A stretch of DNA of 64,000 bases from an uncultured Lachnospiraceae bacterium. Lineage in GTDB: Bacteria > Bacillota > Clostridia > Lachnospirales > Lachnospiraceae. Position 1 is the stretch's first letter, and the number at the start of each line of letters is the position of its first letter. A program made the position numbers and the translations under genes. The stretch is taken from contig CANQCY010000005.1 of NCBI GenBank assembly GCA_947591245.1, forward strand, positions 1 to 64,000, read 5' to 3'. This document shows, one piece after another, positions 959 to 18,745 of this stretch. Below the pieces are notes generated by a model. The model did not search any database. It had not been told where the DNA came from and saw only the letters and a program-made list of their open reading frames with translations.

Positions 959-3337
959 TCACCCCCCCGCCGGTCCGGAATTATAACCATAATCAATCGC
1001 AAAATTGTACAGACGGTACGGATTCTGCTGTATTTTATAACAGATGAACCGATCCGTCTCCAGATATACTTTCATTTCATTCGGATACAGGCGCTGAAAC
1101 TCCTGCGCCCAATAATAAAGGCGCGACATAACGATCCATCTGTTTTCGCCCTTATACATCTCGATTCCGCCGACGTTCGGCAGATCCCTCCCCGCCCCCA
1201 GCTCAGATATCGCCTGTCCGCTTCCCTCATAGGTCAGGGTATAGTCAATCGGTATCTTTTCGATAAAGAAATAAACGCTGTTGGTCGGTATTTTGATAAA
1301 TGGCTCCGCCCCCTGAACCATATTTTTCAGCTCCATTTCCCGAAGAAACGAGATCAGCTCATAATGATAACCGTGATCCTTTCCCATCTGCGTTTCATCA
1401 TTCGCTGAACAGATCGTCCATGTAAAATCGGTCTCATCATGGATAATATTGGTCAGGCAGGCAATCGCCTCATTTGTCACAAGCTGCGTATTATCGACCG
1501 GCTGCTTTCTGAACTCGCCGTCCCAAAGCAATAAAACAGCTCCGGCAACACAGGCAAGGGAAACGAAATTTCTAAATTTCTTCCAACTCTCCGGCCATAT
1601 AACAAAATACAGGATGCCGTCCGCCACGAAAGCGAACACGACCGGAAGCATATATGCATAATAAATTCTGCACCGTCCCGCGTCCATCAGCTCAGGAAGT
1701 CCGAGCCTGTACGCCGCCTGCAGCACAGACATCAGCGCCATAAAAACGCCCACGGATAAAAGCATCGCCCCATAGCAGCGCCTTTTAAGCACGATAAATA
1801 TAATTCCGAGAATAAACAGGGCGCCGATGCCCGCGGCTATGACCAGATAATGCCACGGTTCCTGTTCCCCCGTCAGCACGCATTCGTTCACTGCATCACG
1901 CATACTCTCACAAGCCCTGGCAAGTTTTTTTCCGATGCTCTCGCGAACCGGCTCTTTCTCTATTTCAGCTTCCTGCATTTGGGAACCGTCCTCCGCCGTC
2001 TGGGCTTCGGAGCCATCTCCGGCTGCCTCCCCGCCAAGCTGCTGCTCGATACGGTTTCCTTCCGAATCATAGTAGATCACTGTAGCGCCGCCAACGCTTG
2101 CCGCATCCCCTCCTTCACCCGTTTCTTCGTCCTGCTCATCCTCCGAGCTGCCGCTAATGACGTTCATGCCCCAGCCCAGGGAGCCCTGGAGCGGAGTTCC
2201 CATAATAAACGCAACCGCCATCGGCAAAACGGCAATCATCACGCTGATCATACACGTGGCCACAACGCGCCAGAAGTATCCCCTCCTCACAAACCAGAAC
2301 AAATATCCCGCCGCTACCCCGACACAGAACAGTCCGGCAATCATTGTGTCGTAAAAATGAACGGCGAGCGTCATGGAAAAACTCATGGCAAAGAACACGA
2401 GACAAATAAACGACTCGCCTGTTACCCCTCTCTGCCGTCGCAGCTCGTCCCGCCTCTTTTCAAAAAACAGGAACGCAAAGTATATGGCGGGCAGTATGAA
2501 GATCATTCCGTATTCCTGAGGGAGCACCGCAAAAAAGCGAAGATATGTACTTGCCTGCAAAAAATCCCCCAGCACATAGATTCCAACCGCCGCATAGGCG
2601 ACAAATTTGCTCCGGCAGCAGAGCCGAATGAATCCCAAAAGGGTCATATGCAGCATAAGCGTCTGTATAAATGGAAATACACGCATAAGCACGTACGTAT
2701 CAATATGGAACACGGCATGAAGATAGTATATTACGCAATGATATCCAAACGGATACACGCCGTCGATAAAAATCTGGTTCTGGCTCAGCCCGTTAATCCA
2801 GAACATATGCACCGGCGTATCTGACGCGGTGTACCCATAGCCTTTAAGCAGGTGAATCCCATAAAACGAGGCGAGCGCCGCCAATACGGCAAACATGCAC
2901 AGCCACTGCAGCCATCTTGTATAAAATACTTTCAGAAACGCCCTGATCCCATGACGCACCGCCTTCCCCGCTTTCGCCAGAAGCCGGCAGATCAGCGATT
3001 TCACTCCCATATACCCCTTGGATATTTTTTGTAAATCCCGCCACACCCCTTTCAAAGAACTGATGCGGTGGCCGCCGTACAAACACCATACAATATACGC
3101 CGGTATCGCCGTCCCCAGTGTAAGCGTGGCCGTATTTGATATTTTCAGGAGCTGGAGCAGAAAGACCAGATTCATCACATAAAAATTTCCGGTCAGAAGG
3201 CATATAAAAAACCTCTGCACAAAATCCCGTTCCTTAATTTTTTCGTGCAGAACAATCGCCGGCAGCAATACCGTGACAAAAAGATATGCTGACAAACTTC
3301 CGGTAAACTGTAAAATTGTAAGCATTCGCATGGTCAT
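959..3337 (-). CDS. Large polytopic membrane protein, GT-C-like, in Pel-type operon
   Basis: A 792-residue protein with at least ten hydrophobic segments spread over its first two thirds, then a soluble C-terminal domain (about residues 620-792). Early in the chain, after a membrane segment, it has SDTPVHMFW and a Tyr/His-rich stretch (YPFGYHCVIYYLHAVFH). This resembles the acidic first extracytoplasmic loop of GT-C glycosyltransferases, but no family is certain. An acidic low-complexity loop (about 390-485, rich in E, G, D and Q) separates two membrane blocks. The ATG at 3337 is preferred to the TTG at 3346 because AAAGGTGG lies 9 bases upstream of it. The gene sits between the PelE-like and DUF2194 genes, so a role in polymer synthesis, modification or export is inferred from context. 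Confidence 0.7.
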   Translation of the reverse strand: MTMRMLTILQFTGSLSAYLFVTVLLPAIVLHEKIKERDFVQRFFICLLTGNFYVMNLVFLLQLLKISNTATLTLGTAIPAYIVWCLYGGHRISSLKGVWRDLQKISKGYMGVKSLICRLLAKAGKAVRHGIRAFLKVFYTRWLQWLCMFAVLAALASFYGIHLLKGYGYTASDTPVHMFWINGLSQNQIFIDGVYPFGYHCVIYYLHAVFHIDTYVLMRVFPFIQTLMLHMTLLGFIRLCCRSKFVAYAAVGIYVLGDFLQASTYLRFFAVLPQEYGMIFILPAIYFAFLFFEKRRDELRRQRGVTGESFICLVFFAMSFSMTLAVHFYDTMIAGLFCVGVAAGYLFWFVRRGYFWRVVATCMISVMIAVLPMAVAFIMGTPLQGSLGWGMNVISGSSEDEQDEETGEGGDAASVGGATVIYYDSEGNRIEQQLGGEAAGDGSEAQTAEDGSQMQEAEIEKEPVRESIGKKLARACESMRDAVNECVLTGEQEPWHYLVIAAGIGALFILGIIFIVLKRRCYGAMLLSVGVFMALMSVLQAAYRLGLPELMDAGRCRIYYAYMLPVVFAFVADGILYFVIWPESWKKFRNFVSLACVAGAVLLLWDGEFRKQPVDNTQLVTNEAIACLTNIIHDETDFTWTICSANDETQMGKDHGYHYELISFLREMELKNMVQGAEPFIKIPTNSVYFFIEKIPIDYTLTYEGSGQAISELGAGRDLPNVGGIEMYKGENRWIVMSRLYYWAQEFQRLYPNEMKVYLETDRFICYKIQQNPYRLYNFAIDYGYNSGPAGG

Positions 3338-3358
3338 TGACGGCAACCACCTTTCCGG

Positions 3359-4255
3359 TTATTGAAACACGCGAATGAGTTCCAGCGTCTCATTATCGAT
3401 CACAATATCGGAACTGCGGAGCTCATCCATTACTTCAAAAAATTGTTCCCGTTTCTCCATGGAGAAGTATAATTTCAGGAGGCACGTATAAGTGGCAAGC
3501 ATATCCGGATAACATTCTTTCGCCCGTCTGCACCATTTCTCGCATGTCTCATATTCGCGCATTTCCAAATGGCGGAGACTCACCGCCTCAAACTGGACGC
3601 TGGTCATCCGTTTTCTTTCTCTGTCATACAGTATCTCGCACATCTCATCCATAACTGCCACAAAAGCGCTCTGCTCCATATCCGTGAATACTCTCTGCCG
3701 AAGCACCTGATCCATATAATCGATCAGCATAACAACATATTCTATCTGGTTTTCTTCCTGTTTCGCAATCTCATTGCGGCATTTCTGCACGGTCGCGCGG
3801 AAATCATTGAGCGAATCCTGCAGTACCGACGCGGCATAGTGAGACGTCTCGGAATCCTCGCTGCCAAGCGCCAGCGAAATCGAAGCCAGCGAATTGCGGA
3901 TATCCCCCCGCACGACATTGAGCATGAGCGTCCGAAGATTATCCTTGTCCGTGACTGCAAGAGCCTCTTCCATGGAAACGACCGTCCTGCCCCATTCCTC
4001 ATCGGCATGCGTATATGTCTGGACGCGGTCTTTCCTGAACACAACGTCCGCCAGGTCAACCTCTTTTGAAAAAAAGCTGAGATATATAACATAAGCAAGG
4101 CACACATACAAAGGTCCCAGCCCCGGACACAAAAACATGATCAGCGACTTTGCCCCGTACCCGAGCATATTTTCCTTTTTCCGCATGAAATTCCAGATAA
4201 AATATACAATAGCTGTAATGCTGTTGGCTATTAACAAAATTACAAATTTATCCAT
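3359..4255 (-). CDS. PelE-like membrane-anchored TPR protein
   Basis: A 298-residue protein. Two N-terminal membrane segments (about 4-18 and 35-60, the latter with PGLGPLYVCLAYVIYL) are followed by a helical region. That region carries a conserved-looking block (NVVRGDIRNSLASISLAL) and C-terminal TPR-like helices (YETCEKWCRRAKECYPDMLATYTCLLKLYF). Two membrane helices plus TPR repeats is the architecture of PelE, which works with PelD, PelF and PelG in the inner-membrane Pel synthase complex. The gene starts 8 bases after the SDR-PelD stop, as pelE follows pelD in described Pel loci. The assignment rests on architecture and position, because sequence identity to PelE is expected to be low. 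Confidence 0.65.
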   Translation of the reverse strand: MDKFVILLIANSITAIVYFIWNFMRKKENMLGYGAKSLIMFLCPGLGPLYVCLAYVIYLSFFSKEVDLADVVFRKDRVQTYTHADEEWGRTVVSMEEALAVTDKDNLRTLMLNVVRGDIRNSLASISLALGSEDSETSHYAASVLQDSLNDFRATVQKCRNEIAKQEENQIEYVVMLIDYMDQVLRQRVFTDMEQSAFVAVMDEMCEILYDRERKRMTSVQFEAVSLRHLEMREYETCEKWCRRAKECYPDMLATYTCLLKLYFSMEKREQFFEVMDELRSSDIVIDNETLELIRVFQ

Positions 4256-4263
4256 ATATGCCG

Positions 4264-6450
4264 CTATACCCCTAATTTTTCTACAATCCTGCTCTCATAG
4301 CCAGCCGCCTTAAACCTGCTCACTACGATTTCTGCTTCCTGCCGTACCGTGTTTGCGAGAAGCACATACAGCCTGCCGTCTGTCATCGCTCCAAGGTAAT
4401 CCGACTGGCGGAGGTTTTTCATAAGCACCTCTCCCGCCTCTTCATATTCCTCCGGCAGCGCCTTGATCTGCAGCAGGGTACACTCCGTCAGATTCCTCTT
4501 TTTCGCCTTCTGGTAAGCCTTGACAAGAGAGGTAAACGCCTCCGGTTCAAGAATCTGGGTATCCACCATATACCTCTGCTGTTCGAGCGCCGCCATATAC
4601 CTCCCGGCACGAAGCACGGCATTCTGAATCAGATAGCTGATAACGACGAGGAGATTCGCTTGTCCGAGCGTCATCCGTTCCCACGGAATTCCCCATACCA
4701 TAACGATCATTTTCATTTCGTCATTTTCGTAAATAGCATTTGCCATCAGCGGATATTTGTCGTCAAGTTTCCGGTTGATAAATACCTTACGCGCCGCCAG
4801 ATCTTCATACAATGCCCCCATGTCCGAGTAGCGTATAGAGTTCCCGAGCTTTCTGGCCTCTTTGGAGCTCGCCGAAAACATTCGCGCATAATTCGAATTG
4901 TACACGACATAGATAGCCACGTCCGGGCTTCTCATGATCTGGGACAATATATCCACTGCATAAAACAGCACTTCCTCCGGCATGTACCGGTCAAGCGTGG
5001 AAGTTATGTCGTACAGCTTGCCGATGCTGTCCTTCTGGTCGATCACCTGCCGCTCTAAAACGTCCTTTACCCGGACGTTACTGCTGTTGATATCTTTAAT
5101 ATCCCTCAACTGCCGGTTCAGATTCTGCTGTATTTCCTCGCTTTCCGCGCGTACCGACCTCGTCCGGTCCTTCATATACCCGACAACGAGTCCCACGATA
5201 AACAGCTGCGCCATCCACACATACGTCGTATAATCAAGCATAACCTCAAACCCGCTCCGCGTATACATCTGACGGAACAAGTAGCCGCTGACGGCTAAAA
5301 CAGCCGAAAATATCGCCTGGCGCTGTCCATACACAATCGCAAAAAGAAGAACGTAAAACAAATAAAAATCAAGTCTTGAAAAATAGGCGCTGCCCGCCGT
5401 CCTGTTGTTCAGCATAAACACCGGAATAAAACAAATCATATTTTCAAGAAAGGGGACGGACGCCTTTAAAAACCAGCCAAAACGCCGCCACATCCGTTTC
5501 CATAACGACGGCCTCGCCTTTCCTCCGTTGAGAAATACGTCTCTGTTTTTCTGCATGTATGAGACGACCCTCTTCACCCCGTCGGCTGGCGGATGACAGA
5601 CAGAACCGCCAAATTCCTTTAAAAACCGCTCGTTAGATAGCACGCGGCTGCTCTTATACGGCTTGCTTATCGGCACGACGTTTACCGGTTCTTTCATATT
5701 CCCGGCTACCAGCTCTGCAAGCCCCACCTCTGTAAGCGGCTCTGCCGCAGACAGATGATACAGTGAATAATTTGTCTTTTTCGCCGAGATAATCAGGTAA
5801 ATAAATTCCACTGCGTCCGACTCATACAAAAGCGAACAGGCAACATCCGGCGCTGCCCGTATCACTCCCGTCTCCATAGCCTTGCGGCACATATTGGCGC
5901 ATACTCCGTCCATTTCTTCCACGTCCCTTGGCACGCTGTACAAATGATCGAGACGCAGCACCAGCACATCCCGCTTCCAGTTCTCCCGGAAACCGGCGCA
6001 TATATCCTCTGCCTGCGCCAGCACCACCCCGCGGAGCCCCTTTGCGCACGCGGGCTGTTCTTCCCGTATTTCCTTTTGGTAATGCCCCTGATACACCTCT
6101 TCCGATGAAAGAAAGACAAATTTGCCCTTATTTACAACAGAATACGCCACGAGAAGATTCATAAGGCTCGATATAAACCGTACTGACTCCCTCTCTCCGT
6201 TCTGCCAGCTGAAATTCGAATCATACGCTCCCAAAAATAAGGTTACATCCGGCGCCACGCTCTCAAAGATCTCATTCAGGTTCGCATTGTCATAAGAAAA
6301 CTCATATCGCTCGAATACTTTTTCATATTCGCTTACAGAAACAGAATACTGCTGCCCCGTTAGCAAATGCACCCTATGGCCCTCTTTTTTCAATTTAATA
6401 ATTAACCGGTTCATAAGACTACAAGAACCGCCAATGAGTAAAATATTCAT
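4264..6450 (-). CDS. SDR epimerase-like domain fused to PelD (c-di-GMP receptor)
   Basis: A 728-residue fusion. Residues 1-300 form an extended SDR/epimerase-like Rossmann domain (MNILLIGGSCSLMNRL, VAPDVTLFLGAYDSN, FVFLSSEEVYQ). The canonical GxxGxxG and YxxxK are altered, so it may not be catalytic. About 345-450 is a hydrophobic block of roughly four membrane helices, then a short coiled coil, a GAF-like domain (about 470-620) and a degenerate GGDEF domain (about 625-728). In the last, LRQSDYLGAMTDGRLYVLL aligns position for position with the usual RxSDxxxRxGGDEFxxLL. The catalytic GGDEF is lost while the RxxD I-site is kept at about 680-684. This is the hallmark of PelD, the c-di-GMP receptor that switches on Pel synthesis. 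The ATG at 6450 is chosen because GGAGGGG precedes it. Confidence 0.85.
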   Translation of the reverse strand: MNILLIGGSCSLMNRLIIKLKKEGHRVHLLTGQQYSVSVSEYEKVFERYEFSYDNANLNEIFESVAPDVTLFLGAYDSNFSWQNGERESVRFISSLMNLLVAYSVVNKGKFVFLSSEEVYQGHYQKEIREEQPACAKGLRGVVLAQAEDICAGFRENWKRDVLVLRLDHLYSVPRDVEEMDGVCANMCRKAMETGVIRAAPDVACSLLYESDAVEFIYLIISAKKTNYSLYHLSAAEPLTEVGLAELVAGNMKEPVNVVPISKPYKSSRVLSNERFLKEFGGSVCHPPADGVKRVVSYMQKNRDVFLNGGKARPSLWKRMWRRFGWFLKASVPFLENMICFIPVFMLNNRTAGSAYFSRLDFYLFYVLLFAIVYGQRQAIFSAVLAVSGYLFRQMYTRSGFEVMLDYTTYVWMAQLFIVGLVVGYMKDRTRSVRAESEEIQQNLNRQLRDIKDINSSNVRVKDVLERQVIDQKDSIGKLYDITSTLDRYMPEEVLFYAVDILSQIMRSPDVAIYVVYNSNYARMFSASSKEARKLGNSIRYSDMGALYEDLAARKVFINRKLDDKYPLMANAIYENDEMKMIVMVWGIPWERMTLGQANLLVVISYLIQNAVLRAGRYMAALEQQRYMVDTQILEPEAFTSLVKAYQKAKKRNLTECTLLQIKALPEEYEEAGEVLMKNLRQSDYLGAMTDGRLYVLLANTVRQEAEIVVSRFKAAGYESRIVEKLGV

Positions 6451-8602: not shown

Positions 8603-8631
8603 TTACAATTTACTTATGACTGTGGTATAAT
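8603..8631 (+). promoter_or_regulatory. Promoter of the PHP phosphoesterase gene
   Basis: TTACAA (8603-8608) and a perfect TATAAT (8626-8631) are 17 bases apart. Transcription would begin near 8638, after the upstream GTG at 8636. This supports the ATG at 8657 as the true start. Confidence 0.6.
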
Positions 8632-8656
8632 AAGCGTGAAGGAGAATGATGGTTTT

Positions 8657-9511
8657 ATGAGATATATCGATTTGCATGTTCACTCGAACTGCTCAGACGG
8701 CACTCTCACGCCGGAAGAGCTCGTTTTAAGAGGAATTAAAAACGATTTGGTTGCGTTTGCCCTGACCGATCACGACACGGTGGCCGGCGTGGCGCGCGCG
8801 ATAAAAAAAGCCGAAGAACTCGACAATCACATTCAGGTCATTCCCGGCGTGGAACTTTCATGCCAGTACAAAGTCTCGCCTGACCGGAATGCGGAAATTC
8901 ATATTCTCGGCTATCAGATTGATTATGAAAACGAGACGCTTGTTTCAACATTAGAGAAGATTGCCAAAGAGAGGGACAACCGCAACAAAAAAATGTGCAA
9001 AAAGCTTCATGACGCCGGATACCCGATCAGCTACGAAGAGTTGACGGAAAAATACGGCAACATGGTCATCACGCGCGCGCATTTTGCCAAGCTCCTGCTT
9101 GAAAACGGCGGCGTGCCCTCGATGGATTATGCATTCCGTACCTGCCTTGCGGTTGACAGCCCTTATTTCGTAAACCGCGAATATCTCACGCCGAAAGATG
9201 CGGTGGATCTCATTCAAAATTCCGGCGGCATCCCGGTTCTCGCGCACCCGCTCCTATATAAGATGTCGGTGAGCGAAATCCGGCGCATGCTGGAGACTCT
9301 GAAAAATTACGGGATCCGCGGCATAGAGGCGTTATACTCGCGCAACCATGGCACGGACGAGGCGTTTGTGAGAAAGCTTGCCGGTGAGTACAAGCTGTTC
9401 ATCACAGGCGGTTCCGATTTCCACGGGGCAAATAAACCGGATATTGAAATGGGCGTCGGAACGGGGCATCTGCGCGTTCCTGTCATGCTCTTGGAAAACT
9501 TAAGGCGCTGA
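8657..9511 (+). CDS. PHP-domain phosphoesterase (RNase AM / YciV type)
   Basis: A 284-residue PHP metallophosphoesterase. The metal-ligand motifs appear in order: DLHVHSNCSDGTLTPEEL near the start, LTDHDTVAG, IPGVELSC, LAHPLLY, and GGSDFHGANKP near the end. Members of this branch (YciV/RNase AM) are 5'-3' exoribonucleases or 3',5'-nucleotide bisphosphate phosphatases; which applies here is not decidable. The start is the ATG at 8657: GAAGGAG at 8638-8644 serves it, while the GTG at 8636 would lie at or before the transcription start. It is convergent with thiE, with only 4 bases between the two stops. Confidence 0.85.
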   Translation: MRYIDLHVHSNCSDGTLTPEELVLRGIKNDLVAFALTDHDTVAGVARAIKKAEELDNHIQVIPGVELSCQYKVSPDRNAEIHILGYQIDYENETLVSTLEKIAKERDNRNKKMCKKLHDAGYPISYEELTEKYGNMVITRAHFAKLLLENGGVPSMDYAFRTCLAVDSPYFVNREYLTPKDAVDLIQNSGGIPVLAHPLLYKMSVSEIRRMLETLKNYGIRGIEALYSRNHGTDEAFVRKLAGEYKLFITGGSDFHGANKPDIEMGVGTGHLRVPVMLLENLRR

Positions 9512-9515
9512 AGCG

Positions 9516-10151
9516 TCAAAAGATCGCCTCTTCCATTTTGCGTATAAGCTCCTCGGCAGCCTCTGTAATATTTCTTGCACCGAGTACCGCAGAGATGACG
9601 GCTACGCCCTCGATTCCCGTCCCTCTGAGGCGATGAATATTTCCCGCGTTGATCCCGCCGATCGCCACGACCGGTATTTTCACTGTTTTTCTGATTTTCG
9701 CCAATTCTTCGACGGACACATGATGTGTGCCCGCCTTGGTCGACGTCCCAAACACGTCTCCCACGCCGATATAGTCCGCGCCGTCTTTTTGCGCGCGAAG
9801 GGCAAGCTCCGTATTATATGCGGAAACGCCAATGATCTTATGTCTGCCCAGTATTTCCCGCGCCGCCTGCGCCGGAATGTCTTCCTGCCCGAGATGGACG
9901 CCATCGGCGTCTACCGCCATGGCGATGTCAATTCTGTCGTTAATGATAAGCGGGATTTCATAAGCATCCGTAACCTCTTTCACGCTGCAGGCAATATCAT
10001 AAAATTCTTTTCCCGGACAGTCCTTTTCCCGCAGCTGGACGACCGTAACCCCTCCTTTGACCGCAAGCTCAACCCCTTCTTCAATTGTATCTGAAGTCAT
10101 TAACCCCCGGTCTGTGCACAGATAGAGGGAGTAATCGACTCGTGGCTTCAT
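9516..10151 (-). CDS. thiE: Thiamine-phosphate synthase
   Basis: A 211-residue TIM-barrel enzyme joining HMP-pyrophosphate and thiazole phosphate to thiamine phosphate. Diagnostic segments are VQLREKDCPGKEFYDIA (pyrophosphate-binding arginine), PLIINDRIDIAMAVDADGVHLGQED, IGVSAYN, DYIGVGDVFGTSTKAG and PVVAIGGINAGN. It is a full-length member. No TPP riboswitch is visible in the short gap before it and no other thi gene is nearby. It starts 41 bases after the coiled-coil gene upstream and may be read as the last gene of that operon. Confidence 0.93.
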   Translation of the reverse strand: MKPRVDYSLYLCTDRGLMTSDTIEEGVELAVKGGVTVVQLREKDCPGKEFYDIACSVKEVTDAYEIPLIINDRIDIAMAVDADGVHLGQEDIPAQAAREILGRHKIIGVSAYNTELALRAQKDGADYIGVGDVFGTSTKAGTHHVSVEELAKIRKTVKIPVVAIGGINAGNIHRLRGTGIEGVAVISAVLGARNITEAAEELIRKMEEAIF

Positions 10152-10192: not shown

Positions 10193-11386
10193 TTAATATT
10201 TCAATACTTCTTCGATCTCCTGCGCATACTCCGGGCTTTTATTCCGTATCCGTTCCAGCTCGTTGAGAAAGTCTTTCATAAGGCCGTTGTTGTAGTCTAT
10301 CTGGTCACGCAGCTTCTGACGCCGTTCATTCAGGCCATGCCGCACCTCAACCATCTCCTTCGGATCCACAAGCGCCGCCGCCTGATTAAACCAGATTTCC
10401 CTGTCTTTCACCCCCAGAATTTCCAACTCATGGAGCAGTATTTCATTCTTTTCATTGAGCAGAAACGCATCCTCGCGCCGTCTCGCCCATTCCCGTTTTG
10501 CTTTCTGGTACTGGTCGTACACAAACTCAAGCTCCGTTGCATTCCTCACTTTATACTTGCTGTACATATAATCAATCGTTTTTGTATTGTTCACATATTT
10601 GATCTTGACGCGGTTCGCCAGCGAAATCGCACGGTTGCATTTTCGCTCCGTAATGACCATATCCGTACGGTTTTTTCTCGCCTCAAAAACAATGATGCCT
10701 AACACAATCAGCGCAAAGGACGCCGTCGCGACAAAAGGAACCCGCATATCTGCTTCAAAGACAAGCGCTATTGTCAGAATCAGCACGCCAAACGTGAAAA
10801 GCAGGAGCGCCAGCGCCTTGCTCACCAGACGCAGCGTGCTCTGCCGCTTCACAATATCGCGCTTATCCGACAAAAGAATACCCTTCTCCGTCTCCAGCTG
10901 CCTCATATCATTTTTTATCTTAATCTGATAGTCCTCATATTCCTTTAAATTGTTCAAATCCTGCGGCACCTTGGGCTCGAAACTCTCCAATGCCAGCTTC
11001 TGGGCATCCGTAAATTTGAATTTGCGCCGTTTGAGGCGCTCCCGTTCCTTTGTCAGTTCGACGATCGACTGCGCCGTCTCCAAAAGAACCTTCTTATCCT
11101 CCGGCGCCGCCTGATCCATCAGCTGGATATCTTTCAGGTAAGACGTAACCTGTCCGTACTCCGCCTTAATGTCGTCGCACTGGCGCTGCGCCTCCTTAAT
11201 CCCATCATAAAGACGCTTAATATAATCCAGCCTTACTGCCCTATTTTTTAAATCTACATTTACTTTTTCCAAAACCACTTTATTTTCCGGTTTTGCCTGT
11301 TCTGAAATATGAGCGGCGTCCTCCGGAATTTCCGGCGCCTCTTTTACTTCCGCCTTCTTTTTTTTAAACAGCCATTTAAACGCCAT
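10193..11386 (-). CDS. Coiled-coil protein with two membrane helices; last gene of the DUF5716/5717-type cluster
   Basis: A 397-residue protein of unknown function. A basic N-terminus (FKWLFKKKKAEVKE) is followed by a long charged coiled coil (about 45-195). Then come two adjacent membrane helices (about 200-235: LALLLFTFGVLILTIALVF and VPFVATASFALIVLGIIVF), and a second long coiled coil to the end. Both coiled-coil arms would lie on the same, probably cytoplasmic, side. The start is the ATG at 11386: GGAGG lies 6 bases upstream within the end of the preceding gene, and the two genes overlap by 11 bases. Tight coupling puts it in the five-gene operon starting at 17953. Confidence 0.8.
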   Translation of the reverse strand: MAFKWLFKKKKAEVKEAPEIPEDAAHISEQAKPENKVVLEKVNVDLKNRAVRLDYIKRLYDGIKEAQRQCDDIKAEYGQVTSYLKDIQLMDQAAPEDKKVLLETAQSIVELTKERERLKRRKFKFTDAQKLALESFEPKVPQDLNNLKEYEDYQIKIKNDMRQLETEKGILLSDKRDIVKRQSTLRLVSKALALLLFTFGVLILTIALVFEADMRVPFVATASFALIVLGIIVFEARKNRTDMVITERKCNRAISLANRVKIKYVNNTKTIDYMYSKYKVRNATELEFVYDQYQKAKREWARRREDAFLLNEKNEILLHELEILGVKDREIWFNQAAALVDPKEMVEVRHGLNERRQKLRDQIDYNNGLMKDFLNELERIRNKSPEYAQEIEEVLKY

Positions 11387-12167
11387 ATTGCCCTCCATCC
11401 GTTTCTACAAAGGATGACCGCAGTTCGTTTTTGCACGCCTCGATAAAATTAAATTCTTCTTCTCTCGCCCGATACTTGCCTTTCGCATCCGTATAATCTT
11501 TCTTTAACATCTCTAACTCCTCCTGCGTCTTCCCATATTCCGTACCCTCCTTAACAAAGAGCTCTTCTTTACCCGCAATCAACAATGCATATAAATACTG
11601 ATTTAACGACTCGCTGCGGTGATTTCTCGCATAGGCTTCTTTAAACGCCTGCGCCGCCTCCTGAAACGAGGATGCATAAAAGAGGGCGATCGCCTGATTG
11701 TGCAAAAGATCCCCGTACTCCTCCGTGGTAAATTTTTCCGCCATCGCTCCATAAAGCAGCTTTTTATATTCCTCCAAACTCCTCCCGTATTTCCCCGCAT
11801 TCAAATAATTATCGGCTTTTATCTTGTTCTTTTGATGGGGGGGGAGATTGGATATTTTTTCCATCACCTCAACCAGCTTCCTCACTTCAGCTTCCTTATA
11901 ATAGTCGCAAGAGCAGAGCAGCGTCACGACAAGATCCTTCAGATCATTATGCCGGCGGACGAGCGCCTCCATCTTATCTGCCAGCCAGCCGCATTTCGCA
12001 TGCTCCCGCAGCCACACGACAAGCCGCTCATCAAAAAATTCCCCGGTGACGCCATAAATATTATTGTAAATATAGTAACAAAGCTCTTCCAGCGAGTACA
12101 CCGGCACTTCCGAGACCGGAACAACATAAGGCTTCTTTGCCAAAACGCCTTTACACAAGATAAACAT
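11376..12167 (-). CDS. Helical-repeat (TPR-like) protein of the DUF5716/5717-type cluster
   Basis: A 263-residue, largely helical protein of unknown function. The N-terminal 60 residues (MFILCKGVLAKKPYVVPV... YSLEELCYYIYNNIYGV) look like a small distinct domain. TPR-like helices follow (KADNYLNAGKYGRSLEEYKKLL, LLHNQAIALFYASSFQEAAQAFKEAY), with a coiled coil at 215-245. A longer reading to 12413 exists, but it would overlap 230 bases of the previous gene and has a basic, unprotein-like N-terminus. The ATG at 12167 has AGAAAGGG about 7 bases upstream and follows the previous stop by 16 bases. It is likely a scaffold or co-chaperone-like partner of the Hsp70-like protein, by inference from position only. 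Confidence 0.8.
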   Translation of the reverse strand: MFILCKGVLAKKPYVVPVSEVPVYSLEELCYYIYNNIYGVTGEFFDERLVVWLREHAKCGWLADKMEALVRRHNDLKDLVVTLLCSCDYYKEAEVRKLVEVMEKISNLPPHQKNKIKADNYLNAGKYGRSLEEYKKLLYGAMAEKFTTEEYGDLLHNQAIALFYASSFQEAAQAFKEAYARNHRSESLNQYLYALLIAGKEELFVKEGTEYGKTQEELEMLKKDYTDAKGKYRAREEEFNFIEACKNELRSSFVETDGGQYGV

Positions 12168-12183
12168 AATAAACCCTTTCTTT

Positions 12184-13398
12184 CTATAGCGTAATCGTTT
12201 CCTCCCATATTCGGTAAGAGGAAGGGAAAAATTCTCCAAATCCTTTATCACGCAGCGTAATAATACAACGCTCCGGCCCGGCAAAGCGAATCTGCAATGC
12301 GACTCTCGCCTGCCTCTCGGTGCGTCCCTCAATCCCCTCCATCGGTATGAAACATGTCCTTTTCTCCTTAGTGACAATGTTTTTGATGGTAATCTCCATC
12401 TCTTCATCGCCATCGGGAATCAGATCCAGTTCATAGTCAATATGATACCATGCCGTACCCGCCTTTACCAGCAGAATTTCCTGAACCTTCGCATCGGTAT
12501 AAGCCTGTATTGAAATATTGCAGACGACGGCGTCTTCGCCCAGATAGGCGAATTCCTCGATTTTTCTCTCCCCGCCGAGTTCCCTCGCCATATAACAAGC
12601 GCCGCACACATAGAGATTGTCCCCCTTGAAAAGATGCCTGCCAACGCAGAGTTTTTTCATAACGCCATCGGCAAACTCATCTGAAAAGCCCGCCCCCGTC
12701 ATATAAAGGCTCGTAATGACCTGACCATGAATCGCCCCCTGAACCATCCCCTCGAAAATCGACGCTTTTTCCTCGTCCGACTGTTCGCCGCTCGCGAAAA
12801 TTTCCGCATAATCGCTGTAATCTTTCTGCTTCACCTGAACAAGTACGGGACGCTTCAAACGATCCGTTTTCATCTGATAATATGTGAGGCGGTCTTTCTC
12901 ATAATCGAACATTCCCACCTGATTCACCCACAGCTCCTTTTTCTGGCTCATGACATAATACACATACGCCTGCCCCCTGTCTGCCACAAACGCCCTTTCC
13001 TTCGTGATGCCCAATTTTTCAAGAGCGCGGTAAATAATAGCTATAAACCGTAAATCCCGGTATTCCGTCGTCACTACGAGTTTACGAATCGATTCACTTG
13101 GATACCGCTTCTTTGTCAGGGACAGCGTCTTTCTCAAAAATGCAGCCAGAACATTAACCGGATTCGATTCCTTTCCATCCGCATATATCGGTTCCTGTTT
13201 GAAAATTTTTTCCACAAACCCGGAAATGCGCTCTTCCGACCCGGGAATCGCCACTTCCGTTTTTATGTTAATCGTTTCCCCATCTTCCCCGCCGCGCGCC
13301 GTCAGCACGTCCGGCTCGATCCTTCCCGGCCCCATCACTGCAATCTGCGTTATATCATTGCGGATATCCATACCTACATATAATTTCTGCTGGCTCAT
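12184..13398 (-). CDS. Divergent Hsp70/actin-fold ATPase-like protein (DUF5716-type)
   Basis: A 404-residue protein that I read as a divergent ASKHA (Hsp70-like) protein. The N-terminus KLYVGMDIRNDITQIAVMG matches the phosphate-1 loop (DxGxxxxxxAV). FVADRGQAYVYYVMS resembles the Hsp70 segment EPxAAAxxY. ITSLYMTGAGFSDEF with NLYVCGACYMAREL resembles the adenosine-loop pair (GGxSRIP ... AxGAAxxA). After that comes a beta-rich C-terminus (VKAGTAWYHIDYELDLIPDGDEEMEITIKNI) reminiscent of the Hsp70 substrate-binding domain. Several nucleotide-binding residues are changed, so ATPase activity is uncertain. I associate it with DUF5716. The ATG at 13398 is chosen because ATGGAGG precedes it. It lies in the middle of the five-gene cluster. 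Confidence 0.75.
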   Translation of the reverse strand: MSQQKLYVGMDIRNDITQIAVMGPGRIEPDVLTARGGEDGETINIKTEVAIPGSEERISGFVEKIFKQEPIYADGKESNPVNVLAAFLRKTLSLTKKRYPSESIRKLVVTTEYRDLRFIAIIYRALEKLGITKERAFVADRGQAYVYYVMSQKKELWVNQVGMFDYEKDRLTYYQMKTDRLKRPVLVQVKQKDYSDYAEIFASGEQSDEEKASIFEGMVQGAIHGQVITSLYMTGAGFSDEFADGVMKKLCVGRHLFKGDNLYVCGACYMARELGGERKIEEFAYLGEDAVVCNISIQAYTDAKVQEILLVKAGTAWYHIDYELDLIPDGDEEMEITIKNIVTKEKRTCFIPMEGIEGRTERQARVALQIRFAGPERCIITLRDKGFGEFFPSSYRIWEETITL

Positions 13399-13421
13399 AA
13401 CTTCCTCCATCCATTCCTTTA

Positions 13422-16400
13422 TTATAATGGCGTGAACAGCTCATCTGCAATCCTATGGCGGCGTTTATACTCGTCCGCAAGAGCGTCAAACTCCGTTTTG
13501 TCCCCGCGCTCCCGCGCATCGATCATCTCGTTGACCATCTGATAAAACGCCATTTCCCGCACCTCATCCGTTTTTTCCGCTTCCAGTACGCCCTCTTTTA
13601 CGGGTTCATCCATATTTCCCGCAAAAATGCGATAGTTCAGACGCTCTCCCTGAAACAGAATTGTTTCATACACATATACATCCGCGAATACCCGCTTCAT
13701 CTTCTGGGCGGCCATCTTTCCGCCTCCGCCGCTGACCTCGATGTAAACATCCTTTTTATCGGAACAATAAAATTGTACGATACCTGAATTTTCCAGTTCA
13801 AAAGGCATCTCTACCTTGCCCGAAAACGCTTTCATAAAATCCATGATCCTTCCCATGGAAACATACTGCGACAAATGATATGCGATATACTCCCTCTCCG
13901 AATCCGTATACTCTTCTTTTCCCGAATAATATTTGAGCATGGCAAGAATCATCGTCTGATGCTCTTCCGAAAGCCCTTCTTTGCGCACCTTGCTTACAAT
14001 ACCCTCTGGAAGTCCGCATTTTCCCACAATATACTCATATGCCGTATAAGACAAAAATGCCTTCGCCAGCGTTCGGTTTGCCCCGTAATCATAGTAATCC
14101 AAAAAAATATCCGCATACTGCTCCGGATCCGCCGAGACAAATAGCGCTTGTCCCAGAAGCCTCTCCGTGCCCCCGTCGCCGACGTCCGCCGCACTCTTCT
14201 TTGCGTCCCTGTATATGTCGAGCAAATGCTCGGTAGCGCCCATATAGTAATTCGCCAGATATGACAATGTTGCCGCATTGCTGGCGCCGTTCCGGTATAA
14301 ATAATCGCACAGCCTCACATAATAGGAGTCAAAACGCCCTTCATCCTCCTCCAGTTTCCATGTCGCCAGAAGTAAAATCAGTTTCGGGCTGGCATTCATA
14401 ATCCGGTATTTTTTCAACCGTTCCAGCGCCTCGTCATTCATCCTGTGCTGTATCATTGTCTGCAGAACGCCCGCGCGTTTTTTTTCATCCAAATACTGAA
14501 AATCAATCTCCCTGAGTATTTCTTCCAAAAGGGAGTCTTCACCGATCGAGCGGTAATACTCATATAGAACAATCAAAGCCTTACTTCGGTATTCCACTCC
14601 GGTCAAACCGCTTCGTATAAGCATATGAAGAATAATCGCATCCGACGCGCTGATTTCTTCTTTTTCCAACGCCTGGTAAAATAGATTTAACAAAAGAACC
14701 GGGTGTTCAGAACCATTTTCGTAGCACCTTGCGGCAAGAAAATCTAAATTTAACATTTTATCTAATCTATATTTAATTGTTTGGGCGTGATAGTAACCAT
14801 TCTTGTCCTCGAAATACAGCATGTAATGCGGCGTGCCTATATTGATATCTGCCTCGCCGCCCACGAGATTGTATTTCATCTCGCCGCCGCCCTCGTCATG
14901 AACGACGACCACCCTCTCCATATTTTTATTTTTGCATGTGATATGGCGGGCAAATAACACATACGGCAAATCCTTTGCGATCTGCCCCTTGACATTCTCC
15001 TGCGTCAAAAACGCTTCATACAGCACGGCAAGTTCACTGTTGATCCGGTGGTTTGAAAGCTGCCCCTCCGCAAATTTCCATATAACGTCCTGATACACCT
15101 GAAAATATTCCGGATGCTCGTTCCGGTTTCTCACGATGCTCGCATAAAAGGACGCTTTCACTGAATCGCGCAGATGGTTTTCGTACTTAAAGTAAGAAAT
15201 CACCGTGGACAGCGCCTCGTCAAACCGACCCTTATCCATCGTATACATATAGTATTCAAACAGATCCGTAATTCTCAGGGAATTCTCGACCCCCAGCTGA
15301 AACCACTTAAAATAGCGGGGCTCCTGCTTCTCTGAGCGGATCAGAAGCGTACATATACTGTTCAGCGTATCCTTGAGAGCAAACATATCATAACATTTTT
15401 CCAGAAGATTCAAAAGCGCCGGCGTACACCGCCTCTCCCTGGACGCCAGAAAAGACAGCGCCATCGCGACATCCTCCGTCATCAAACCATGCCCCGCTCC
15501 GAAGCGCAGCGCCCCGATCGTCTTGGAATCCAGCTTGCTCAACACATCTACATCCTGCAATATAAGGAGCATGCGGTACATATGCATATATGGACTGCGG
15601 CAGCCATCTTCCCACAGAAGATCAAGCTCTTCTAAAAAGCTTTCCTTATTATCCGCATAAGCCCCCAGACGCTCCAACAAAACAAAAAGCTTCCAATGGC
15701 GGTATCCATTTTCGTAAAAATGCCTGATCTGCCCGGTCGCCGCCTCTTTTTCCTCTTCGGAACCGCTCATTTTCGCTCTCAGGAAAACAGATGCGAGATA
15801 CCGGTATACCGTATCCGTTTCGTCTCCGGGCTTCGGTTCCGCCATATCCTCTGTCGCGCTGCGAAAAAAATTGATTCCCGCTGCGTCCCCGGCGAGATAG
15901 CTCATATACCCTGTCATTTGCAGTTCATATTTATGGCACAGCGAAAAGAGCGCCTGCCTGTTTTCTTCCAGCATCTTATACCATGATTCCCGAAGGCTGC
16001 TGTTCATCATCTGCTGGATATGGCAGCGCACAAGCCCGGCGGTCAGCTTTTTCCGCGCCCGCTCCTCTCTTCGCTCCTCCGCCCCCCTCATGCAGTGAAT
16101 GCGCACTGACACATCGACCGTCTGATAAACCGATTCAAAAATAAGATGGCAGTGATGGCGTCCCGGCATTACATCCGAAGCTGAAATATGGAACGGTACA
16201 ACAGCCTGATTGCCAGTGAAATCATTTACGCCCAGCGCTTCCTTGTCCACACTGAGGAAAGAACGATCAGAGGATATGCGGATTCCGACAAGGCCCCAGC
16301 AATCTTTCACAACAATGACCTCATCCGTAATGTCATCTTCCCTCACCTCAAATATAATCTGCTTTTTATTTACTGTGAATTGCACTGGCTTTTTATCGCC

Positions 16401-16949
16401 ATGTGCAGTTAAAAACTCTTCTAACGCTTGTTTTTTAGAATTTTTTTGAGTTAAATGCTGATATAATCTTTTTTCAGGCAGTTTATTCAGATACATTTTC
16501 TTAAATTTGTCATTATAAAAAAGATGAACCGCATCCTCAAAATCATCTTCTGCAAGCCGGACAAATTCTTCATAAGAGGCGACCGCCCCGGAAGGAGCTT
16601 CCAGATATCTTCCCGTCACCGTAATACGATATGGCAGCGCTTTCTCCCCACAGTCCGTCAAAACATAAATATCGCCCGACATCACATCGCCATGCCGGCG
16701 GGTTCCCGCATGCGCTTTTACCGTAATCTCATTATCCTTCCCGTCAAATACCGGAAGAAATTCAATGTCAAACTCATCTACGGCACAAAAACCCTTCATT
16801 TTTTTATTTAATTTATTTTTTACATGAAAGACCGCCTGCGCCTCTCCGCCTTCCGGTACTTCAAATTCCAGCTTTTCCGTTGATAAAATAATCTCCGGCT
16901 GCTCATACGTAAATTTGCCCTGAGCAAGCAGCATGACCTTCTCCTTCAT
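13422..16949 (-). CDS. Very large helical-repeat protein with N-terminal beta domain (DUF5717-like)
   Basis: A 1175-residue protein, the largest of its cluster, with no signal peptide or membrane segment. The N-terminal 300 residues are beta-rich, with two Ig-like stretches (IILSTEKLEFEVPEGGEAQ, GDIYVLTDCGEKALPYRITV; and a second copy-like unit VVKDCWGLVGIRISSD). They are followed by about 750 residues of helical solenoid. A final beta-rich region has VYIEVSGGGGKMAAQKMKRV and GERLNYRIFAG. I associate it with DUF5717, function unknown. The ATG at 16949 (MKEKVMLL) has GGAGG about 6 bases upstream; the longer frame to 16985 would abut the previous stop and lacks a better site. It may be a platform for client or partner binding beside the Hsp70-like protein. 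Confidence 0.8.
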   Translation of the reverse strand: MKEKVMLLAQGKFTYEQPEIILSTEKLEFEVPEGGEAQAVFHVKNKLNKKMKGFCAVDEFDIEFLPVFDGKDNEITVKAHAGTRRHGDVMSGDIYVLTDCGEKALPYRITVTGRYLEAPSGAVASYEEFVRLAEDDFEDAVHLFYNDKFKKMYLNKLPEKRLYQHLTQKNSKKQALEEFLTAHGDKKPVQFTVNKKQIIFEVREDDITDEVIVVKDCWGLVGIRISSDRSFLSVDKEALGVNDFTGNQAVVPFHISASDVMPGRHHCHLIFESVYQTVDVSVRIHCMRGAEERREERARKKLTAGLVRCHIQQMMNSSLRESWYKMLEENRQALFSLCHKYELQMTGYMSYLAGDAAGINFFRSATEDMAEPKPGDETDTVYRYLASVFLRAKMSGSEEEKEAATGQIRHFYENGYRHWKLFVLLERLGAYADNKESFLEELDLLWEDGCRSPYMHMYRMLLILQDVDVLSKLDSKTIGALRFGAGHGLMTEDVAMALSFLASRERRCTPALLNLLEKCYDMFALKDTLNSICTLLIRSEKQEPRYFKWFQLGVENSLRITDLFEYYMYTMDKGRFDEALSTVISYFKYENHLRDSVKASFYASIVRNRNEHPEYFQVYQDVIWKFAEGQLSNHRINSELAVLYEAFLTQENVKGQIAKDLPYVLFARHITCKNKNMERVVVVHDEGGGEMKYNLVGGEADINIGTPHYMLYFEDKNGYYHAQTIKYRLDKMLNLDFLAARCYENGSEHPVLLLNLFYQALEKEEISASDAIILHMLIRSGLTGVEYRSKALIVLYEYYRSIGEDSLLEEILREIDFQYLDEKKRAGVLQTMIQHRMNDEALERLKKYRIMNASPKLILLLATWKLEEDEGRFDSYYVRLCDYLYRNGASNAATLSYLANYYMGATEHLLDIYRDAKKSAADVGDGGTERLLGQALFVSADPEQYADIFLDYYDYGANRTLAKAFLSYTAYEYIVGKCGLPEGIVSKVRKEGLSEEHQTMILAMLKYYSGKEEYTDSEREYIAYHLSQYVSMGRIMDFMKAFSGKVEMPFELENSGIVQFYCSDKKDVYIEVSGGGGKMAAQKMKRVFADVYVYETILFQGERLNYRIFAGNMDEPVKEGVLEAEKTDEVREMAFYQMVNEMIDARERGDKTEFDALADEYKRRHRIADELFTPL

Positions 16950-16984
16950 TATATCCTCCATTACATTGCGGTGCATCGCACCCA

Positions 16985-17953
16985 TTACGGTGTATTTTCG
17001 ATCCTCTTGATGAGCGCTTCAAGCAAGCGCAGTTCCATGGGCTGACAGCCGACAAGGCGGTAGTCCTTCACCTGCTTAACCGCCTCCATGGCGATCTGTA
17101 ATGCCGCCCCTTTATCTCCCTCTATGAAAAAGAGCCAGTACGCAAACGTCCGCCGCGCATTTACCTCTTCCGCGCCATCCAGCTTCTCCAAAAACGGCTT
17201 GCCGTAAAACTTCGCTTTCCCCTCATTGGGAGCGATAATCACATGGTAAAATACAAATTCACTGAGCATTGCCAGTTCTGACTGCGGCCATTTGTCCGGC
17301 ACATAATTTTCAAACTCGTCCATAACCTTTTTTACAGAGCTGTAATCGCCCGTATCTAAAAAATGATAGTACTGCATGAGCAGATATTTTTTATATACGG
17401 AATAATCCGTGACTTTCCCCGTAAAGGCCACCTGCCGTATATTGATCTTTCCCGGCGGGATGCCCACCTTTGCCGCCGCCATGCATCTTTCATACTCTTG
17501 CCGCATAATCCCGGTTGCATCGCCGCCGGACTTTTTCTTCTGAGTCACGCCCAGACGAAGAATGAGGAACAATGTGCACGCCGCCATGACAGCCGACATT
17601 GCTATCGTCAGCGGATTTTTGGGCATCAGCTTCGTTCCGTATACCCAGATGCACACATTTTCCGTACAAAACAATGCCAGCGCCATGGAAAACGTCCCAT
17701 AAATAAGATTACGCATCTTTGTCTCTTTCGTATCAATCATACTGCAGCTTATGTACGGCTGCGGGTCGCAAAGCCCAACCGACAGCCTTTTATGCTTTTT
17801 GCCAATCCGTACCATAAAAAAAATAAATTCGTCAAAGCGAAACCGAAGTATCGCTCCTACGATCAGCTTTCCTACAGCCGCCGCAAGCCCCACGATAACA
17901 TAGCCCGCGATGGCGCCGCCCAATACCATGAAAAACCGGGTTCCCATACTCAT
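16985..17953 (-). CDS. Membrane protein with TPR-like tail; possibly a degenerate M50-like domain
   Basis: A 322-residue protein, first gene of the cluster. A hydrophobic N-terminus (FFMVLGGAIAGYVIVGLAAAVGKLIVGAILRFRFDEF) and two later helices (about 85-105 and 115-135) form a membrane block. The second half is helical and TPR-like (YLLMQYYHFLDTGDYSSVKKVMDEFE, RRTFAYWLFFIEGDKGAALQIAMEAV). The N-terminal layout recalls site-2 protease-like M50 proteins of Clostridia, with the HExxH position replaced by VGLAAAVGK. That likeness is tentative and would make it catalytically dead. The ATG at 17953 follows GAGGAAGG by 9 bases. The stop at 16985 is 35 bases from the DUF5717-like start. Confidence 0.7.
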   Translation of the reverse strand: MSMGTRFFMVLGGAIAGYVIVGLAAAVGKLIVGAILRFRFDEFIFFMVRIGKKHKRLSVGLCDPQPYISCSMIDTKETKMRNLIYGTFSMALALFCTENVCIWVYGTKLMPKNPLTIAMSAVMAACTLFLILRLGVTQKKKSGGDATGIMRQEYERCMAAAKVGIPPGKINIRQVAFTGKVTDYSVYKKYLLMQYYHFLDTGDYSSVKKVMDEFENYVPDKWPQSELAMLSEFVFYHVIIAPNEGKAKFYGKPFLEKLDGAEEVNARRTFAYWLFFIEGDKGAALQIAMEAVKQVKDYRLVGCQPMELRLLEALIKRIENTP

Positions 17954-18057
17954 ACCGTCCAACCTTCCTCAGAAAACAACCCGCCGGCGCGCATATTCAT
18001 CTGTTATGCCAGCGCCGGATCGAGCCCTGTATGAATTTCGATACTTTCTCTTATATA

Positions 18058-18086
18058 ATTGTATATAAAATACAGCATTTTGTAAA
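18058..18086 (-). promoter_or_regulatory. Promoter of the five-gene DUF5716/5717-type cluster
   Basis: On the minus strand TTTACA (18086-18081) and TACAAT (18063-18058) are 17 bases apart. This leaves a leader of about 100 bases before the ATG at 17953. The leader contains a GC-rich region with self-complementary CCGGCGC/GCGCCGG blocks. Confidence 0.6.
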
Positions 18087-18211: not shown

Positions 18212-18745
18212 TCACAGTCCAAGCATTTGGACAGCGCCAATTACAATCAGCGCCGCTCCCGCAAAATAATGATACGCAGCGCCACACTTCACTTTCCTCT
18301 CCCCAAACTCAAGAAATAAAAAGGTAAGCGCTCCCGCTACTGCCGGAAAAGCGTAAGCTGCATTCCCCACGCCGCACAAGCTCATGCCCGCGCAAAACGA
18401 ATCCGAGGCCAGCACCCCGCCCAGCACGATTCCCTCGACGGGTTCAATCGTCTTTGATTCGTCTATATCATAGTTTCTCCCCTTCTCCCCCCGGAAAACA
18501 TCCCAGATCGATTTCCCTCCGAGAAGTACCAGAACAAGCCCCCCAGCCGCCTGAATATAATACGGATTTATAAAAACCCCCATGCCCTCGCCCAGAAGCA
18601 CCGCAGCAAAAGAGGCAATCGCCGAAATCAACGCAACGACTCCTTTCGTCGTCCATGGAATCGTGATTTCCGCCGCATGGTAAGCCGCCCCAAGCGCCCA
18701 TGAATCGATGCTGCCAGACAAAGCAAGCAGAATTACTTTGAGCAT
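18212..18745 (-). CDS. ytaF: YtaF/MntP-like membrane transporter
   Basis: A 177-residue protein with six predicted membrane helices in two three-helix repeats. Each repeat carries an Asp-Ser motif in a helix: SGSIDSWALGAAY at the start and LGGVLASDSFCAGMSL in the middle. This is the layout of the MntP/YtaF family. MntP exports Mn2+; YtaF is its sporulation-associated relative in Firmicutes, with unknown substrate. A short soluble loop (about 85-105, DVFRGEKGRNYDIDESK) separates the halves. It is divergent from the Ca2+-ATPase gene; no yybP-ykoY-type manganese riboswitch is recognisable in the gap. AGGAGA lies ahead of the ATG at longer than usual spacing. Confidence 0.8.
   Translation of the reverse strand: MLKVILLALSGSIDSWALGAAYHAAEITIPWTTKGVVALISAIASFAAVLLGEGMGVFINPYYIQAAGGLVLVLLGGKSIWDVFRGEKGRNYDIDESKTIEPVEGIVLGGVLASDSFCAGMSLCGVGNAAYAFPAVAGALTFLFLEFGERKVKCGAAYHYFAGAALIVIGAVQMLGL

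Follow-up and report, generated by a model that had tools for sequence, protein, structure and literature searches.

An Hsp70 relative without its catalytic residues in a Lachnospiraceae operon, and a multi-Hsp70 cluster in related families

What might an Hsp70 relative be kept for once the residues of ATP hydrolysis are gone? The question is raised by an operon in an uncultured Lachnospiraceae bacterium (GenBank assembly GCA_947591245.1, contig CANQCY010000005.1, positions 1 to 64,000; this whole stretch of 64,000 nucleotides is called the window here). Five minus-strand open reading frames, genes A-B-C-D-E, lie there from 17962 down to 10193, all co-directional and tightly packed, and the frames are as a preliminary description of the DNA had given them: tightly spaced or overlapping. 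Gene C encodes a lidless Hsp70 relative of family DUF5716, and gene B a large protein of family DUF5717. What the preliminary description missed is a longer cluster in related families of the same order. At the loci outside Lachnospiraceae, the genome G167 apart, the gene order is B-H1-GrpEL-C-H3-H4-D, with E in some and with B single or split in two; H1, H3 and H4 are Hsp70s and GrpEL is a GrpE-like protein. With a GrpE-like protein and three seemingly intact Hsp70s at the locus of these families, the operon of Lachnospiraceae makes most sense as a remnant: genes B, C and D, together with E where it occurs, are probably what is left of a dedicated multi-Hsp70 machine, and would now serve, independently of ATP, as a scaffold or peptide-binding platform, tethered to the membrane where E is present.

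Gene C and its relation to DnaK

The product of gene C (12184-13410, minus strand; 408 amino acids (aa), or 404 aa if started at 13398) belongs to DUF5716 (DUF5716_C, PF18980, E 7e-96, 321 bits against a cut-off of 34.7). In the preliminary description it was Hsp70-like with altered nucleotide motifs, and a search against Hsp70 profiles was proposed. The outcome of that search depends on the method: the Pfam HSP70 model (PF00012) has no match to C of the window itself, and profile comparison of Lachnospiraceae C with four DnaKs aligns 385 columns at E 6.8e-7 (Prob 92), against E 0.71 and Prob 0.1 for a tetratricopeptide repeat (TPR) alignment used as a control target. When a profile made from Lachnospiraceae C alone was compared with PDB, six sequences fell under E 0.01, all of them DnaK. 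Further comparisons involve the C proteins of the long cluster, which align with Lachnospiraceae C over 423 columns (E 3.2e-46) and with DnaK at E 1.5e-21. One of them, a 523-aa protein (L060:6282-7853), matches both DUF5716_C (1.5e-26) and HSP70 (1.4e-17) in Pfam, and DnaK chains in PDB at 4.9e-11. C is collinear with DnaK across the nucleotide-binding domain and the beta part of the substrate-binding domain, and by these comparisons it shares ancestry with DnaK over both; its fold is predicted from the same profiles to be actin/Hsp70-like. Read from the DnaK side, the tree places C nearest H3.

The altered motifs that had been described are borne out by counts as well as by the profiles. With the DnaK encoded in the genome of the window as anchor, motif positions were read in 104 short-operon C loci (80 named and 24 others, including L051, the locus of G167; 102 distinct), in 16 long-cluster C proteins, L057 included, and in 23 chosen H1, H3 and H4 proteins (8, 8 and 7). 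The catalytic residues, which we take to be Lys-70, Glu-171 and Thr-199 in DnaK numbering, are each kept in 23/23 of the H1, H3 and H4 proteins, as are the phosphate-1 Thr pair and both Asp. Among C proteins, the lysine is kept in 0/16 from the long cluster and 0/104 from the short operon (two of these being gaps), the glutamate in 2/16 and 0/104, and the threonine in 0/16 and 2/104; C of the window has V, R and R where DnaK has Lys, Glu and Thr. Short-operon C keeps the first Asp in 92/104 loci and the second in 72/104.

Like the catalytic residues, the size of C sets it apart from DnaK. Between the phosphate-2 and adenosine motifs lies lobe IIB, which GrpE grips in DnaK. This stretch measures 142 residues in DnaK, 145-181 in H1, H3 and H4 and 135-151 in long-cluster C; in short-operon C it measures 59-98 (median 70, with 4/104 above 85), some 75 residues around lobe IIB being gone. 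From the adenosine motif to the C-terminus there are 306-320 residues in DnaK, 182-185 in H1, 196-202 in H3 and 169-185 in C; since C, H1 and H3 thus end 169-202 residues past the motif, none of them has the helical lid. What remains of C is not evenly conserved: in 105 short-operon C proteins conservation is highest in the beta domain and around the adenosine motif and lowest in the shortened lobe, and several Trp, Gly and Phe positions are near-invariant. By this pattern, C looks kept for something other than ATP hydrolysis.

The longer cluster in related families

The genomes counted here were evenly drawn, with many incomplete assemblies among them, and the loci opened were chosen by hand: 40 loci of the order and five later ones, chosen from matches. 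Fourteen of the fifteen chosen loci L059-L073 have all seven genes and 15/15 have B; at L073, H4 and D were not found within the stretch covered. All eight genes are present in a closed genome (L160). At L161 GrpEL, H1, H3 and H4 are kept and an unmatched 308-aa gene stands where D would be; contig ends truncate L162 and L164. Long-cluster loci were opened from eight families (f4, f6 in part, f7, f11, f16, f19, f22 and f24), and L057, from the intermediate family f4, has all the genes, B, H4 and D being split into two open frames apiece, and its C groups with those of Lachnospiraceae. The split frames there span 3840-5884 (H4), 2705-3731 (D) and 11552-15429 (B), and in H4 and D they would reflect either decay or sequencing error.

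The Hsp70s of the cluster are recognized by Pfam without difficulty, HSP70 matching H1, H3 and H4 of L060 at 5e-76, 7e-63 and 5e-96, respectively. H1 and H3 are members of this family with intact motifs that are too short for a lid; H4, equally intact in its motifs, has in place of the lid a vWA domain (2e-10 in L060) with a seemingly intact metal-binding motif. H4 (L060:2495-4573) is also 69-90% identical to nine relatives, above the aligned rows of GrpEL, C, D and a B part, the four to which the comparison extended (H1 and H3 lay outside it). In GrpEL of L060 the GrpE match (3e-13) covers residues 517-641 of 644; in this protein (L060:7870-9804) and its relatives, of about 560-645 aa, a GrpE C-terminus follows a long N-terminal extension (279 aa in L057).

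Across the order, DUF5716_C was found in 142/295 genomes and DUF5717_N in 145/295. Both B and C are present in 48/48 Lachnospiraceae of this draw, and among the 247 genomes outside that family 89 have both, five C only and eight B only. GrpEL occurs in 94/295 genomes, from 14 families, always (94/94) in a genome with B or C, and in 0/48 of the Lachnospiraceae; eight genomes outside Lachnospiraceae have B or C without it. It was found in 0/249 genomes drawn phylum-wide, a zero that shows little because the members of the order listed for that draw are four Lachnospiraceae and one genome without the cluster. A divergent aminotransferase (PF00155) lies at most 1.4 kb from B in 9/15 of the loci L059-L073 and in 22/80 named Lachnospiraceae loci, and this common neighbour suggests that the short and long forms occupy the same chromosomal locus. 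At L060 it is a class I/II enzyme (15568-16716), and several families have it next to B, where the window has instead gene A and an MntP-like gene.

The ordinary Hsp70 system is present alongside both forms in the genomes examined. In each of four Lachnospiraceae genomes, of which three are assembled into one or two contigs, there is a single canonical DnaK and a single GrpE; further HSP70 matches in these genomes are weak and lie in frames of 274-371 residues, taken here as other actin-fold proteins. Two closed genomes with the long cluster have DnaK and GrpE plus the cluster.

Partners, conservation and setting of the short operon

Gene B (13422-16985, minus strand) encodes 1187 aa, or 1175 aa from an ATG at 16949, and matches DUF5717_N (PF18984, E 2e-201, 671.6 bits) and DUF5717 (PF18983, E 7e-58, 196.6 bits) against a cut-off of 25. 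The assignment of B and C to DUF5717 and DUF5716, families whose Pfam descriptions give no function, was thus correct in the preliminary description, and both proteins lie far above the cut-offs. For the solenoid that had been proposed in B there are weak TPR-like matches at most, with TPR_19 in 2/32 B proteins (best E 0.0086). Kinship of the N-terminal domain of B with a known family was considered and rejected, the best PDB match having an E of 0.028, and a profile of Lachnospiraceae B had no match in PDB up to E 1. Among B parts of the long cluster DUF5717_N is found in 13/13, other Pfam matches being weak and limited to one or two members each.

Gene D is listed at 11376-12413 (minus strand, 345 aa); an alignment of relatives places the conserved start at the ATG at 12167, which gives 263 aa. 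Its TPR character, proposed beforehand, is weak in the window, unlike the clear repeats of its long-cluster relative in L060, where Pfam finds several TPRs (E 5e-26), including four TPR_2 stretches. D and C are also tied in gene structure: at four loci (L093:9917-12160, L095:9968-12163, L132:10007-12136 and L139:9980-12121) a D relative is joined to the C-terminus of C in a single open frame of 709-747 aa. The fused proteins of L093 and L095 are 88% identical, those of L132 and L139 74%, and the two pairs about 30%, and the fusions are read as two events in two lineages.

Gene E (10193-11398, minus strand, 401 aa) encodes a membrane protein that reads as a coiled coil, as the preliminary description had it. 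By hydropathy it has two adjacent membrane segments (196-214 and 220-238), a two-helix hairpin near the middle of the protein; gene A has at least two segments, and B, C and D have none. At L052:4261-7113, E and a glutamyl-tRNA-synthetase-type enzyme (PF00749) share one frame of 950 aa, by fusion or frame error. In Pfam neither D nor E of the window scores above a curated cut-off, and none of A-E is named by NCBIfam.

The conserved unit is B-C-D, often with the membrane protein E. In the 80 named loci, which are the best 80 of at least 539 confirmed relatives and not a random sample, B is present in 78, the two loci without it beginning where a contig does; D stands as a separate gene in 76 and is part of C in the remaining four, and E lies near D in 54. 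Measured on longest open frames, the median distance between B and C is 20 nt (77 loci), between C and D 14.5 nt (76) and between D and E 4.5 nt (52); in the window B and C are 11-23 nt apart, C and D 16 nt, and D and E overlap by 23 nt. Within the family C is nearly universal, being found in 195/200 Lachnospiraceae genomes, 194/199 genera and 161/164 good assemblies, with two matches in two genomes. Cultivable species with the locus include Butyribacter intestini, Kineothrix alysoides, Lacrimispora algidixylanolytica and Anaerocolumna sedimenticola. In the phylum-wide draw C was found in 4/299 genomes, all Lachnospiraceae and the window's own among them. Outside the family, f8 has the short operon or B alone in two genomes, G167 and G111.

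Gene A, by contrast with B, C and D, does not travel with the set, so that the expectation of five genes conserved together holds for B, C and D and fails for A. It encodes 325 aa (16985-17962, minus strand), has no Pfam match above the curated cut-off, and carries its membrane segments within the first 135 residues. It was found in 7/41 genomes of relatives, all seven of the window's genus, of which 18/25 genomes are without it, and in 0/16 genomes from other families. It lies directly upstream of B in five further loci of that genus opened besides the window, and upstream of B in 6/80 named loci (L106, L110, L111, L115, L117 and L119; for L111 and L117 the genus is not established). Gene A is thus an accessory gene that belongs to the genus of the window and its close relatives, outside the conserved unit. 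Two genomes of the genus have distant second copies at 22-23% identity (G606:C149:5318-6262 and G589:C98:823-1764).

The single promoter that had been placed upstream of gene A at 18058-18086 (minus strand) is present as a pattern, TTTACA-17-TACAAT, a 10/12 match to consensus and the sole site listed within the gap upstream of A. It is weak evidence of a promoter because the scan runs at the level of chance, with 16 sites where shuffled sequence has 13.7 +/- 4.0. Further upstream on the same strand (18212-18745) lies the MntP-like manganese efflux pump frame (PF02659, E 3.2e-9). A functional link to the genes downstream was considered and rejected: the genes covered by the scan code for enzymes of the purine-synthesis type, an antiporter and a tRNA synthetase.

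A remnant and its alternatives

The proposed history and mode of action are as follows. The ancestor of the order would have had the long cluster, with H1, H3, H4, GrpEL, D, B and C, the last being a diverged copy with H3 as its probable nearest relative. H1, GrpEL, H3 and H4 would have disappeared from the locus in Lachnospiraceae, where C would also have shed the ATPase residues and the greater part of the lobe-IIB stretch. C would then act without ATP hydrolysis, as a pseudo-enzyme whose core and short beta domain bind a partner peptide or fix the geometry of B and D; D would clamp onto C, with C standing on B, and E would tether the assembly to the membrane where present. The direction from long to short is the most economical one, judged by parsimony and by the sequence of C itself. 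No outgroup in these draws carries either form (C in four phylum-wide genomes, all Lachnospiraceae, and GrpEL in none), which leaves the direction without an outgroup to set it, and the short operon could be ancestral, the other families having later gained H1, GrpEL, H3 and H4. That order of events seems improbable given that 14 families have GrpEL and a single one, together with G167, has the short form, that long-cluster C keeps a full-length lobe stretch and more of the Hsp70 motifs, and that L057 combines the full cluster with a C of the Lachnospiraceae group.

The preliminary description saw in the operon a membrane-anchored chaperone or scaffold machine; as a working Hsp70 chaperone it would have C as ATPase core, D as co-chaperone and B as client platform. 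The Hsp70 homology of C, the TPR-like D, the membrane segments of E and the C-D fusions would all suit such a machine, and the failure is in the core: with catalytic Lys and Glu in 0/104 and Thr in 2/104 of short-operon C proteins, most of the lobe-IIB stretch deleted, GrpEL missing in 48/48 Lachnospiraceae and no J-domain match among the proteins scanned, there is little likelihood that C works as an Hsp70. C might instead be an adaptor that brings the ordinary DnaK to B, or to a site at the membrane, so that the operon borrows the ATPase of DnaK. The four Lachnospiraceae genomes examined all keep one canonical DnaK and one GrpE, and loss of the private Hsp70s would be easiest if DnaK could substitute for them; still, Pfam matched no J-domain in A-E (no other search for DnaK-docking motifs was made), no observation here points directly to DnaK, and such a role is judged unlikely.

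Parts lists of known conflict systems also resemble the cluster. In Kaur et al. (2020, PMC7159879), GAP1-N2 neighbourhoods comprise HSP70, GrpE and an FNIII protein that carries DnaJ or TPR as a fusion, and some have a second HSP70 that lacks the peptide-binding domain; the cluster is like this theme in its HSP70, GrpE, additional HSP70, TPR partner and membrane association. The CnuD protein of CoCoNuT, according to PMC11090510, is a degenerate Hsp70 encoded in operons with vWA and coiled-coil proteins and is proposed to bind RNA; a degenerate nucleotide- and substrate-binding unit in such company recalls C. The operon could on these grounds be a conflict or defence module akin to either system, and PADLOC matches H3 (8.7e-11) and H4 (4.4e-7) of L060 to the candidate model PDC-M61B over about 190 residues, and D to two models through its repeats. 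PADLOC has no match for B, C or E of the window, nor for B, C, H1 or GrpEL of L060, and the GAP1-N2 domain (PF20013) was found in 0/11 genomes tested, against 1/14 control genomes; on these two results the label of a defence system was rejected. The cluster differs from GAP1-N2 systems also in its four Hsp70 paralogues, one with vWA, and no GTPase, nuclease, McrB or McrC match was found among the cluster proteins scanned, the last two setting it apart from CoCoNuT. The operon is near-universal and syntenic in Lachnospiraceae, which most mobile defence genes are not, and a defence role is hardly to be expected here.

A number of observations weigh against the reading of the operon as an ATP-independent remnant. 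Given the Asp residues that it keeps, C may bind ATP or ADP without hydrolysing it. Even in clusters with GrpEL and three good Hsp70s the motifs of C are degenerate; C could therefore have been a subunit without ATPase activity for a long time, and its degeneracy says little on the loss of the others. The presumptive C of L161, identified by position (8604-9842, 412 aa, very diverged, 40 bits, no Pfam match), is also short, in a cluster that has GrpEL, so that the lobe and GrpEL are not strictly coupled in their loss. The placing of C beside H3 comes from a tree with long branches flagged by the tool, and window C, as said, goes unmatched by the Pfam HSP70 model. Separate copies of H1, H3 and H4 were looked for in the four Lachnospiraceae genomes only. 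As to distribution, 5/200 Lachnospiraceae genomes are without C, E was not found in 26/80 named loci, some of them cut by a contig end, and the short operon of L051 is in a genome, G167, placed in another family and with 5% contamination.

A wider claim is put forward more tentatively: the order may possibly carry an undescribed class of multi-Hsp70 system, in which three lidless ATPases, one of them vWA-ended, would work with a long GrpE-like factor and a pseudo-Hsp70 on a platform of 900-1300 residues, tied to the membrane where E is present, and of which Lachnospiraceae would keep the ATPase-free core. The open-licence literature searched yielded no description of the short operon or the long cluster; DUF5716 is mentioned there only in work on another subject and DUF5717 nowhere. 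New here are the Hsp70 ancestry of DUF5716, its TPR-like partner and the longer cluster. The latter offers three lidless Hsp70s and a GrpE-like partner for biochemistry, and comparison of the two forms could tell which of the parts of an Hsp70 system remain useful when ATP is not used. The human gut has Lachnospiraceae among its dominant bacteria, and for an operon whose central gene is in 195/200 of the family's genomes sampled, the lack of any described function in the literature searched is a real gap. If the remnant reading is right, an Hsp70 machine would have survived without its ATPases, and would be nearly obligatory across Lachnospiraceae.

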